Of a stretch of DNA of 64,000 nt, positions 22,631 to 55,613 are shown one piece after another (position 1 is the stretch's first letter; each line of letters opens with the position of its first letter). The position numbers and the translations under genes are program-made. The notes beneath the pieces are model-generated. The model did not search any database. It was not told the DNA's origin and saw only the letters and a list, made by a program, of their open reading frames with translations. The DNA comes from SAR202 cluster bacterium (GTDB lineage: Bacteria; Chloroflexota; Dehalococcoidia; Lucifugimonadales; VXLM01), in assembly GCA_022448725.1 (NCBI GenBank), contig JAKUTR010000003.1, positions 72,353 to 136,352 of the forward strand. The letters run 5' to 3'.

Positions 22631-24220
22631 ATGACAAAACAACACGAGGTAATGTTCGAAACGGATGGGCGGCACTCAAGTATTTACCTGTACGAGCCCC
22701 CTATGAGTATCCGACAGTATGTCGAACCAATTGATGAGATCATCGACACAGGGGTTGATACCGTAAGTTACGTTGTAGGCGACTGTGCGGTTCTCCTCTA
22801 CGATACAAAAGTTGGTGAGATCTGGGGTGATAACCATGACCTCCTTGATCACGAGGTTTGGTACAAAGCTGCATTCAATGTCCGCATGATGATCGATAGT
22901 GGCTATGACCCTCTAAAGGTAGTCCTTGAGCATACCCACGCCCGGGGTATGAAGTTTATACCTCATCTACTTTTGAATATGGTACATAGTGAGCCTAGCC
23001 GTGTTACAAGTGGCCGTGTGGCCACTTACAATACTCAACACCCCGAGTGGGTCGTCGGACCGGAACCTGATTATCCCGAAGCAGTTGATGACAACCCTAA
23101 TCGGATGTCGTACTCGGTCCCAGAGATCCGGGAAAACCGCCTGTCTGTTATTCGCGAGTTAGTGACTGACTACCAGAGTGACGGAATCGAACTGAATTTT
23201 AATACCTATACTCCGCTTATAGCGCGTAGGGAAGTACCGGAACACACTGAAACTCTAACGAATTGGATGCGCCAAATTCGCCAAACCGTCGATACCGCGG
23301 CTGAAACTCAAGGCCGACCAAAGCGAATAATTGCTCGAGTTGCAGCGTCAGTTGCAGGCAATAAGAGTATAGGACATGACATCGAGGCATGGGTTAGTGG
23401 AGGGCTTGTTGACACGATTGTCGCGATGCCGGTCGGTGGTGATTTCTCTAGTGAGACAACACGTCTCCAAGAACTCGTGGAGGTCGCAAATACTGGCAGT
23501 ATCCCCGTGATCGTCGGACTCGACAGCGTTGGTTCCGACCAAACAGCCCTAACGCATCGTGCTGCAGCTGTTAACGCCTACGCTGCAGGCGCGCAAGGGA
23601 TAATGTACCACCGGTACTATCCTCCGCCACGACGCTATCCTTACTCCAACGATGACTATTCACGACTACGGTACTTAGCGTACCCAGACATAATGGCCCA
23701 CAAAGATAAAACCTTTTACGTTGGGCCAGGGACGGATCGCCGTAATGGAATCTCGTTTGGACTGCAAGAGCAGCTTCCACAGGAGTTGAGTGTAGGTGAG
23801 CGTGGCAGAGATGTGACTATAGATATCTTGGAAGACATCGCCATCAAAGCGCAGGACGGTGAACTATGGCGTTGCGAACTACGCATCATGCTGGAAGAAA
23901 TGCTGCACCATGACGAAGTGAAGGTATTTTGGAATGAGCAAGAAGTACCAGAAGAAAACATCCGCAAGGCAGACCACGTCTTCCAGATGCGAGAGACTTC
24001 ACGTGCAAGAGGCTATCGACTACACATCGACCTGCGGCAAGTATCACTCCCCTTGCAAGGCACAAATCTATTACGAGTTGATTTGATAAAGAAAGACGAG
24101 AAACTAATCATGCCTATAAAGATTAGTGACGTGGACATTGCCGTTGAATACCTCCCGGGTCGGAACCAATTACGTGATTCTGAGACCTATGAAGGAGCTT
24201 CCATCCCCTTCACACCCTAG
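22631..24220 (+). CDS. TIM-barrel protein, distant glycoside-hydrolase-like
   Basis: A 529-residue soluble protein without a signal peptide, preceded by GGGAGGGAAGTT ahead of the ATG. Residues ~25-330 read like a (beta/alpha)8 barrel: 'LEHTHARGMKFIPHLLLNMV', 'YQSDGIELNFNTY' and 'AYAAGAQGIMYHRYYP'. The order 'GIELNF' and 'AGAQGI' recalls GH10-like putative glycoside hydrolases. Residues ~400-529 look like a beta-rich accessory domain. I do not recognise a named family, and the catalytic acid pair is not certain. The start is 32 bases after the aldolase stop, so it is probably co-transcribed and may act on a sugar or polyol feeding that aldolase. Confidence 0.6.
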   Translation: MTKQHEVMFETDGRHSSIYLYEPPMSIRQYVEPIDEIIDTGVDTVSYVVGDCAVLLYDTKVGEIWGDNHDLLDHEVWYKAAFNVRMMIDSGYDPLKVVLEHTHARGMKFIPHLLLNMVHSEPSRVTSGRVATYNTQHPEWVVGPEPDYPEAVDDNPNRMSYSVPEIRENRLSVIRELVTDYQSDGIELNFNTYTPLIARREVPEHTETLTNWMRQIRQTVDTAAETQGRPKRIIARVAASVAGNKSIGHDIEAWVSGGLVDTIVAMPVGGDFSSETTRLQELVEVANTGSIPVIVGLDSVGSDQTALTHRAAAVNAYAAGAQGIMYHRYYPPPRRYPYSNDDYSRLRYLAYPDIMAHKDKTFYVGPGTDRRNGISFGLQEQLPQELSVGERGRDVTIDILEDIAIKAQDGELWRCELRIMLEEMLHHDEVKVFWNEQEVPEENIRKADHVFQMRETSRARGYRLHIDLRQVSLPLQGTNLLRVDLIKKDEKLIMPIKISDVDIAVEYLPGRNQLRDSETYEGASIPFTP

Positions 24221-25631: not shown

Positions 25632-25901
25632 CTAACCGAGGGCTCTCACCCGCTGCTCTATATCTGCTTTAATCTCCTTGATACGATCAAGGTTAGGGTG
25701 CCCTCCCTCAGTCTTCTTATCGAACACCATTTCTCCATCGATCTCGACTGTAAGGACACCAGCGTCCCCAGGAATCAGAGAGATAGCAACATCACCACCA
25801 CCCGCCGCAAAAAATTCGCTGACCATCCAGGCAGCTTCATTGTGGTAGCCTCAGGGAACACAATATGCGATATCGATCGGTATCTTGCCTTCAAGAGCCA
25901 T
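25632..25901 (-). CDS. Rdx (SelW/SelT/SelH-type) selenoprotein with in-frame TGA (Sec17)
   Basis: Read through one TGA, the frame encodes 89 residues: 'MALEGKIPIDIAYCVP', then the TGA at 25851-25853, then 'GYHNEAAWMVSEFFAAGGGD' and on to '...VRALG'. This gives C14-V-P-U17 in a beta-strand-loop position at the start of an Rdx domain, the CxxU motif of the SelW/SelT/SelH family. The rest of the domain is also typical: 'LIPGDAGVLTVEIDGEMVF' and a Lys/Glu-rich helix. The ATG at 25899-25901 has an ideal AAGGAG five bases upstream. The only alternative start after the TGA, ATG 25826, has no ribosome binding site and would delete the active site. A bSECIS-like hairpin follows the TGA. The likely role is thiol-disulfide redox chemistry; the partner is unknown. 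Confidence 0.85.
25818..25850 (-). promoter_or_regulatory. bacterial SECIS-like hairpin
   Basis: On the minus strand, starting 16 bases after the TGA, GCTGCC (25830-25835) pairs with GGTCAGC (25818-25824) leaving one bulged T, around the loop TGGAT (25825-25829). The loop begins 22 bases after the TGA, and G is its second base. Both fit the published general bSECIS model: a short apical loop with a G in its first two positions, 16-37 bases downstream. It lies inside the coding sequence, as in bacteria. Confidence 0.65.
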
Positions 25902-30567: not shown

Positions 30568-30942
30568 ATGCAAACCAGCCAAAATCATTGGATGCAATCT
30601 GAGTCCTCCGACCAACGGTACACTCAGGCGATCCACGATGGAGACGGCCTGATAACGCGACGGCCGTTTTTCCGTGAGGCCAGTTCTCTTCCAATTAATA
30701 TAGAGGTCTGGGAACTTGAACCCGGCGCGAGTGAAGGGACGCACACACACTCGGGCGATGGCTCTCTCGAAGAAATCTACTACTTCCTCCAGGGAACTGG
30801 GGAGATGGATATCGAAGAAGAGGTGGTCTCCATCAAGTCAGGTGATGCGATAATGGTACCCCCCGGCGTAGATCATGGCTTCCGCAATACTGGCAAAGAT
30901 ATGTTGAAACTCGTAATCGTTTGGGGCAAGCCAACGGAGTAA
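30568..30942 (+). CDS. cupin-domain protein
   Basis: A 124-residue single-domain cupin. The metal-binding motif 1 is 'EGTHTHSGDGSLEEIYYFLQ', with two His and a later Glu, and motif 2 is 'MVPPGVDHGFRNTG' with the last His. These form a mononuclear metal site. Function ranges from isomerase to dioxygenase to sensor and cannot be assigned. It is immediately upstream of, and likely co-transcribed with, the SelA-fold PLP enzyme and the second HpcH-type protein, so a role in sugar-acid processing is plausible. Confidence 0.85.
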   Translation: MQTSQNHWMQSESSDQRYTQAIHDGDGLITRRPFFREASSLPINIEVWELEPGASEGTHTHSGDGSLEEIYYFLQGTGEMDIEEEVVSIKSGDAIMVPPGVDHGFRNTGKDMLKLVIVWGKPTE

Positions 30943-30947
30943 CTACT

Positions 30948-32096
30948 TTGAGCATAGGGACTAGTCACAATATATACGACAAGTTGGGTGTTAAGCGTAT
31001 TGTAAACGCCGCTTCTTGGCGAACTATCATGGGAGGTAGCTTAATGCCACCTGCCGTCATTGAAGCCATGGCTCAGGCGGCCCAATCATTTGTCGATGTG
31101 GATGATCTAAACGCGCGGGCAGGGGAAACCATCGCAAGATTAACTGGCGCAGAGGCTGGTCTGGTAACCGCGGGCTCGGCTGCGGGGATGCTACTAGAAG
31201 CAGCAGCATGCATGGCCGGCACAGACCCAGCAAAGGTCAACCGGCTACCGGACACTAAAGGAATGAAGAATGAAATCATCATCCATAGGGCACACAGGGT
31301 AACGTATGATCGTAGCTTCAGAGGGGCAGGGGCTACATTGGTGGAGATCGGTAATACCCACTCAACCCATGAGTGGGAACTGGAAGATGCAATCACCGAC
31401 AACACTGCTGCAGTAGCCTACGTATTCGGCCCGCCTCCGGGAGGAGCACTACCGTTACCCATGGTTGTCGAGATAGCTCACTCACGAGACGTTCCCGTGG
31501 TAGTGGACGCGGCTGCAATGCTGCCGCCACCTGAAAATCTTACGCGATATTTGGACATGGGGGCAGATATGGTGAGTTTCAGTGGTGGTAAGGGTATCCT
31601 TGGACCACAGTCCACTGGTGTGTTGTGTGGCAGAGCAGACCTGATACAAGCAGCAGTAGCAAACGGTGCACCTAATCAAGGCGTTGGACGAGTAGCAAAG
31701 GTCTGCAAAGAAGAAATTGTAGGACTGGTCACGGCACTTGAGATTTTTGTGGACACAGACCACGATGCAAAAAATGCCCACTGGTCAAATGTGTCGGAAA
31801 ACCTAGCAGACAAGATTGACGATATACCCGGTTTGACTGGCAAATATATACAAGCAATACCCGAGCTTGACGCTTTCGAGAGTGCAACAGCCCGCGTGTT
31901 TGTTTTCCGGGACCACAACTACTCCGGGCCTAGTGAGAGTGAGATTGAAGCCCTCCTTAAAGATGGTGACCCTCCAATCTACGTGTTTAGTGCTGACCAT
32001 AGCAACGGAATTGCTTTGAGCCCAGTCTGTCTGGTGGACGGTGACGATGACATAATCGTGGAACGACTTAAAGAAATCATGAGCAACGCAAGTTAA
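30948..32096 (+). CDS. SelA/DgaE-fold PLP-dependent enzyme
   Basis: A fold-type I PLP enzyme of about 382 residues. Asp187 ('VPVVVDAAA') and Lys215 ('FSGGKGILGPQSTGVLCG') are the cofactor-binding positions. The arrangement 'KLGVKRIVNAASWRTIMGGS' at the start matches the SelA-like family that includes D-glucosaminate-6-phosphate ammonia-lyase. At this length it lacks the larger N-terminal region of true selenocysteine synthase. The open frame begins at a TTG within the cupin gene (30921). I prefer the TTG at 30948, six bases past the cupin stop, with GGAG eight bases before it. A lyase on an amino-sugar acid is inferred and would feed the aldolase-type protein that follows. Confidence 0.8.
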   Translation: MSIGTSHNIYDKLGVKRIVNAASWRTIMGGSLMPPAVIEAMAQAAQSFVDVDDLNARAGETIARLTGAEAGLVTAGSAAGMLLEAAACMAGTDPAKVNRLPDTKGMKNEIIIHRAHRVTYDRSFRGAGATLVEIGNTHSTHEWELEDAITDNTAAVAYVFGPPPGGALPLPMVVEIAHSRDVPVVVDAAAMLPPPENLTRYLDMGADMVSFSGGKGILGPQSTGVLCGRADLIQAAVANGAPNQGVGRVAKVCKEEIVGLVTALEIFVDTDHDAKNAHWSNVSENLADKIDDIPGLTGKYIQAIPELDAFESATARVFVFRDHNYSGPSESEIEALLKDGDPPIYVFSADHSNGIALSPVCLVDGDDDIIVERLKEIMSNAS

Positions 32097-54531: not shown

Positions 54532-55542
54532 GTGGCTATGCAGACTGGCAAACTACCTCTCGCACTCCTGGACAAACTTCTAGCAAAAATAGAAGTCACA
54601 GACCCTGACGTTATCCTAGGAGGGGCAACAGGCGAAGATGCCGCACTCATCGATATCGGGGACCGCTATCTAGTATCAAAAACTGACCCAATAACTTTCG
54701 TAACTGATCTCATTGGATGGTACCTAGTACAGGTTAATGCTAACGATATAGCTGTCATGGGCGGCACCCCTCGGTGGCTGATGGCTACTCTTTTACTACC
54801 TGATGGTACGAACGAGGAGACTGTCGAAAACATCTTTGACCAATTGAGTCAGGCCTGTACAAAGCTAGGGGTAACGTTAGTGGGCGGTCATACCGAGATT
54901 ACCAAGAACGTGTATCGTCCAATAGCTGTCGGGGCGATGCTAGGTGAGGTTGCAAAAGAACGCGCTGTACTTACTTCAACAGCAGAACCTGGCGACCGCA
55001 TCGTTCTGACCAAAGGAATCGCTGTCGAAGGCACCTCTATTCTAGCTCGAGAAGCGGCCTGCAAACTTGAAAATAGTGGTATCAGCCAAGCTACAATTCA
55101 AAAGGCCCGCTCCATGCTGTTTACCCCCGGCATCAGTATAGTAGAGGAAGCGCGTATAGCGTGTGAAGTAACGGACGTTCACGCCATGCATGATCCCACC
55201 GAGGGAGGGATATCAGGTGGACTGGTAGAGATGGCACATAGTGCAAGCGTTGGCTTTGTGGTCCATGAAGAAAGCATTCCAATCCTGCCAGAGTGTAAGG
55301 AATTCTGCGAAGTGCTTGGACTGAACCCACTTGGCCTTATCGCTTCTGGAGCACTACTAGTGACCATGCCAGCATCCGGTGTCTCAACCTTTGTTCACGC
55401 CACTGCGCAGCAAGGGATCAAGGCATATGAAATCGGCCAAGTAACCCCTCCCGATCAAGGAATGAAGATTAGCACCTCTAAAGGTCTACGTGATTTCCCA
55501 ACGTTTGCGAGAGATGAATTAGCAAGATGGTTCGACGAGTAA
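54532..55542 (+). CDS. AIR-synthase/HypE-family protein
   Basis: A 336-residue ATP-dependent PurM-fold protein. Motifs: 'GGATGEDAALIDIGDRYLVS' with the ATP-binding Asp, 'NANDIAVMGGTPRWLMATLL', 'LVGGHTEITKNVYRPIAVG' and 'DPTEGGISGGLVEMAH'. It resembles HypE-like and ThiL-like proteins. It lacks the C-terminal 'RxC' motif of HypE that carries the cyano ligand, and lacks the N-terminal reactive Cys/Sec of SelD. No hydrogenase genes are near. It is divergent from the RAM gene; the true function is uncertain. Confidence 0.75.
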   Translation: MAMQTGKLPLALLDKLLAKIEVTDPDVILGGATGEDAALIDIGDRYLVSKTDPITFVTDLIGWYLVQVNANDIAVMGGTPRWLMATLLLPDGTNEETVENIFDQLSQACTKLGVTLVGGHTEITKNVYRPIAVGAMLGEVAKERAVLTSTAEPGDRIVLTKGIAVEGTSILAREAACKLENSGISQATIQKARSMLFTPGISIVEEARIACEVTDVHAMHDPTEGGISGGLVEMAHSASVGFVVHEESIPILPECKEFCEVLGLNPLGLIASGALLVTMPASGVSTFVHATAQQGIKAYEIGQVTPPDQGMKISTSKGLRDFPTFARDELARWFDE

Positions 55543-55613
55543 CAGATAGGTAGCTACATTGACTCTATCGATCCTCCAAACTATCATGGGAGCGAGAGGT
55601 AAGGATATACACA

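Follow-up and report, generated by a model that had tools for sequence, protein, structure and literature searches.

On the minus strand of the window, by which we mean the whole stretch of 64,000 nucleotides of SAR202 cluster bacterium DNA analysed here, lies a gene of the Rdx/SelW-like type, at 25632-25901, whose reading frame is crossed by a single TGA. The gene starts with an ATG at 25901-25899, a ribosome-binding site read directly as AAGGAG (25912-25907) stands five nucleotides before it, and a TAG at 25634-25632 ends it. Translated with TGA as selenocysteine (U), the frame yields 89 residues and opens MALEGKIPIDIAYCVPUGYHNEAAWMVSEFF; the one TGA is codon 17, at 25851-25853, and takes the place of the second redox residue of the CxxC/CxxU motif, here CVPU at residues 14-17. 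Ordinary gene calling, which stops at the TGA, leaves just a 64-residue ATG-initiated ORF at 25632-25826 on the same strand. An earlier note on this DNA had described the ATG and its AAGGAG, the run Ala-Tyr-Cys-Val-Pro-TGA-Gly-Tyr leading into an Rdx domain, the place of the TGA in the motif, and the 64-residue stub; coordinates, translation, the Pfam Rdx and TIGR02174 profiles and ORF calling bear out each of these points.

The gene appears to stand alone, since a neighbourhood comparison finds the Rdx gene of a congener among other neighbours and in the other orientation; a conserved operon was rejected for the same reason. Promoter and terminator scans at the gene found nothing. Phage records searched with the gene gave no match, and a phage origin was rejected on that ground. 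Six other frames of the window that span a TGA and have a Cys nearby were judged by eye to be ordinary ends of genes, 5' extensions or frames open by chance. Among named records, the closest are two metagenome-assembled genomes, Dehalococcoidia bacterium SB0661_bin_13 and Chloroflexota bacterium IRC4_bin_30, whose proteins are 74-75% identical to that of the window.

The read-through protein matches Pfam Rdx (PF10262) over residues 9-77 (3.2e-16, 59.7 bits versus a cut-off of 22.6) and TIGR02174, CXXU_selWTH (42.1 bits versus 34.2), and it scores 47.6 bits, below the cut-off of 88, with the Campylobacter-specific model NF041051. When a profile of 26 homologs was compared with the PDB, bacterial SelW-related structures were found with E-values down to 3e-13, and an AlphaFold model built from the same 26-homolog alignment has a mean pLDDT of 95. 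In the model the CVPU motif lies between strand 1 (residues 7-14) and helix 1 (residues 20-37) of a thioredoxin-like beta-alpha-beta-beta-beta-alpha fold. Structure comparison by VIA-align gave Z scores of 11.6-13.4 with SelW structures, the best being bacterial SelW-related proteins (about 13), while thioredoxins scored lower (Z 7-8). The domain profiles, the PDB profile search and the structure comparison thus all confirm the earlier assignment to the Rdx/SelW-T-H family. The bacterial Rdx structures 2fa8, 2obk, 2oka, 2p0g and 3dex share the fold and the family (Z about 13) at 25-32% identity, and the window protein differs from them in having Sec at the second Cys position. Mouse SelW (PDB 2npb), of the same SelT/SelW/SelH family, also shares the fold, superposing over 85 residues with an rmsd of 1.8 (Z 11.6), though its identity to the window protein is only 16%; the eukaryotic SECIS lies in the 3' UTR, whereas the element considered here is directly behind the UGA (PMC12013277). 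The product, then, would be a small thioredoxin-fold protein in which Cys14-x-x-Sec17 ends strand 1 just before helix 1. Fold and motif suggest that it probably has a thiol/selenol redox role, exercised through a Cys14-Sec17 selenenylsulfide.

Is the TGA a genuine part of the gene? Of 296 genomes searched for Rdx homologs, 209 had one, and codon 17 was compared among 94 homologs drawn from numerous genera of the order to which the window genome belongs. The codon is TGA in 68 homologs, TGT in 15 and TGC in 11, so that the earlier expectation of Sec or Cys at this residue holds for all 94, with no third residue. The Y-C-V-P and A-x-W flanks of the TGA are conserved among homologs, and domain profiles and alignment alike show the Rdx domain running on both sides of it. 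The TGA form is present in both congeners in which the Rdx gene was found. One might suppose that a cysteine codon, TGC or TGT, had been misread as TGA through a sequencing or assembly error, a supposition to which the homologs with TGC or TGT at this very codon lend some colour. Against it, 67 further homologs, from many genera and separately assembled genomes and including both congeners, have TGA at the same codon, and the synonymous sites of the TGA homologs covary in a way that keeps a hairpin that the Cys genes lack. Because the 94 homologs have a TGA or a Cys codon only, we take such an error, which the earlier note had named as a threat to its reading, to be refuted for all practical purposes.

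The hairpin in question is a SECIS-like element at 25818-25835 (minus strand), GCUGCC / UGGAU / GGUCAGC, with its loop at 25829-25825 and a bulged U at 25822, defined by folding and covariation. Folding agrees with the earlier note that the loop begins at the 22nd base after the TGA (nucleotides 25-29 counted from the T of TGA) and has a G at loop position 2; the predicted free energy, for a folding window of 30 nucleotides, is -8.3 kcal/mol. Over 54 nucleotides the sequence is no more stable than its shuffles (z 0.20), so that a lone fold proves nothing; single-sequence thermodynamics was accordingly dropped as evidence, and the case for the hairpin comes from comparison among homologs. An Rfam search at the locus gave no match.

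For the comparison, 64 distinct UGA genes were set against 26 Cys genes, with the T of TGA as column 1. Columns 21 and 33, both of them third codon positions, are paired in 86% of the UGA genes against 41% expected, by way of GC, CG, UA and AU pairs; in the 26 Cys genes they are paired in 27% against 24% expected. The excess pairing of 21-33 in UGA genes ranks first among all column pairs, and the ranking is a fair control because relatedness is identical for all column pairs. Columns 23 and 31 are paired in every UGA gene, versus 69% of Cys genes. Of the 64 UGA genes, 47 have a hairpin whose loop starts at nucleotides 22-27 with a G within its first two bases and whose dG is at most -7.5; of the 26 Cys genes, 3 do. 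Randomisation that preserves the encoded amino acids gave mean z values of -1.28 (UGA genes) and -0.60 (Cys genes). The loop G is part of a Trp codon, UGG, in all UGA genes, and the Trp is lost in several Cys genes. The stem of the window gene is shifted by its bulged U (GCUGCC-UGGAU-GG(U)CAGC). Covariation at synonymous sites, present in UGA genes and not in Cys genes, supports the view that the hairpin behind the TGA has been maintained.

These comparisons also bear on the idea that the gene is decayed, or that the TGA is a true stop followed by a separate 64-residue frame. An in-frame ATG at 25826 does offer such a frame a start. That ATG, though, encodes the Met that follows the conserved Trp, and it shares bases with the hairpin loop; the codons upstream of the TGA, active-site motif included, are moreover conserved in homologs. 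Between the window genome and one congener, 41 of the 63 nucleotide differences after the TGA fall on third codon positions, and 29 of the 45 changed codons are synonymous, which indicates that the stretch behind the TGA is under selection at the protein level and is translated. Decay or a true stop is thus exceedingly improbable.

Does the organism have the means to decode UGA as selenocysteine? The window genome is a draft of 2.09 Mb in 75 contigs, 95% complete. It contains a tRNA-Sec (68.4 bits, anticodon TCA), selB (335 bits) and selA (518 bits), the latter two proteins being confirmed as equivalogs. The tRNA-Sec gene (G000 contig C22:12732-12825; L001, L058) is 15 bases from a contig end and is preceded by genes that by eye are LarC-like and cysteine desulfurase-like. 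The prediction that selA, selB, selC and selD would all be found elsewhere in this lineage therefore stands for the first three, while selD was not found in the 75-contig draft: the TIGR00476 profile gave sub-threshold matches and a congener SelD query led to the same two places. Both weak matches were rejected as selD, one being ThiL and the other a HypE/ThiL-like relative of AIR synthase. The three congeners all have selD above the cut-off, and in total 12 of 15 sampled relatives do. It is likely that selD is missing through an assembly gap, that is, that it lies outside the assembled contigs. In ten relatives selD is not beside tRNA-Sec within 1.5 kb, so that the contig break there does not by itself account for the missing gene. 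A species truly lacking SelD, its selenophosphate coming from another enzyme such as the AIR-synthase relative that the window itself encodes at about 54545-55550, is very unlikely. That relative (plus strand; L022:1486-2496) is a 336-residue protein of the AIR-synthase superfamily, not SelD, and scores 123 bits for HypE, 110 for ThiL and 95 for SelD, all below cut-offs and about equidistant.

Several observations touch on the same machinery. The order's SelD is itself a selenoprotein by its reading frame, one in-frame TGA being present in all 12 above-cut-off copies (L064:1459-2526; L062-L071); in congener G003 it falls within HCAGU. A 529-residue protein encoded at 22631-24220 (plus strand) of the window resembles, by eye, the gene adjoining selD in G003 (L064, minus strand). 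At 30921-32096 (plus strand) the window encodes a PLP enzyme distantly related to SelA (TIGR00474, 46.6 bits, below cut-off), which is not a selenocysteine synthase.

With tRNA-Sec (anticodon UCA), selA and selB in the genome, with Cys and never Trp as the alternative residue in homologs, and with other long genes of the genome free of TGA under table 11, the notion that this lineage reads UGA as another amino acid, e.g. Trp as in code 4, for which no supporting point was found, is the least credible of all. We put the probability at roughly 97% that the gene encodes a SelW-like (Rdx-family) selenoprotein whose UGA is decoded through the hairpin in a SelB-dependent manner, and from the sequence comparisons we infer selenocysteine insertion at codon 17. 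In the proposed mechanism, selenocysteyl-tRNA-Sec (anticodon UCA) would be made by SelA and SelD; SelB would bind the hairpin, which begins about 15 bases past the UGA, and bring the tRNA-Sec to the ribosome; and the UGA at codon 17 would thus be decoded as Sec.

What has become of the two forms of the protein within the order? To judge by the codons, the UGA form occurs throughout the order. A tree of the 94 proteins, which has no outgroup root, requires at least two changes between Sec and Cys: 25 Cys copies, nearly all from family f29, make up one supported group amid Sec copies, and the Cys copy of genome G043 sits alone amid Sec copies. The direction of exchange in this tree without an outgroup root is likely from Sec to Cys. 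Tandem Sec and Cys Rdx copies occur in several genomes of family f29 (L034:1504-2064, L035:1191-1758, L093, L123).

Among genomes with the UGA form, 94 of 101 have selA, and the seven without it are 56-87% complete; selA is found in 18 of 26 Cys-only genomes (Fisher p 0.003, a value not corrected for relatedness). In one Cys-only genome that is 97% complete (G031), selA, selD and an above-cut-off tRNA-Sec were all not found. G043 (L032, L137), 83% complete, combines a strong tRNA-Sec with a Cys-form Rdx gene, and selA and selD were not found in it; it is probably incomplete rather than exceptional. Loss of the Sec machinery as the cause of its Cys form was rejected, as the 66-bit tRNA-Sec is still there.

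Bacterial SelW-like selenoproteins were already listed in 2006 (PMC1794560), and in the Global Ocean Sampling study of 2008 no prokaryotic selenoprotein family had more members than the SelW-like (CxxU) one, which counted 427 sequences with Sec and 56 with Cys (PMC2398784); a 2026 review has it under PF10262 as a high-confidence prediction (PMC13188914). Most sponge symbiont bins, from various phyla, have been noted to contain SelA and SelB (PMC5649159). A literature search of incomplete coverage found no paper on the Rdx gene in this order, SAR202 or Dehalococcoidia. The known bacterial members (PF10262; TIGR02174), e.g. those of Geobacter sulfurreducens, Symbiobacterium thermophilum and the Global Ocean Sampling data, are like the window protein in size, family and CxxU motif, and in both cases Sec homologs are many and Cys homologs few. 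The window protein differs in its host, a member of the Chloroflexota (Dehalococcoidia, going by the nearest named relatives), and in the motif YCVPU...AAWM, which is found order-wide. SelW-like proteins form a bacterial selenoprotein family that is among the best known and the most abundant, and the window gene adds a member from the Chloroflexota.

Standard annotation drops the active site of the Rdx protein here, and a TGA at this codon brings the same loss in scores of relatives. Closely related Sec and Cys homologs, tandem pairs included, form a natural series within the order in which loss of the hairpin can be traced, and this series is useful for learning what the SelB of this lineage recognises.
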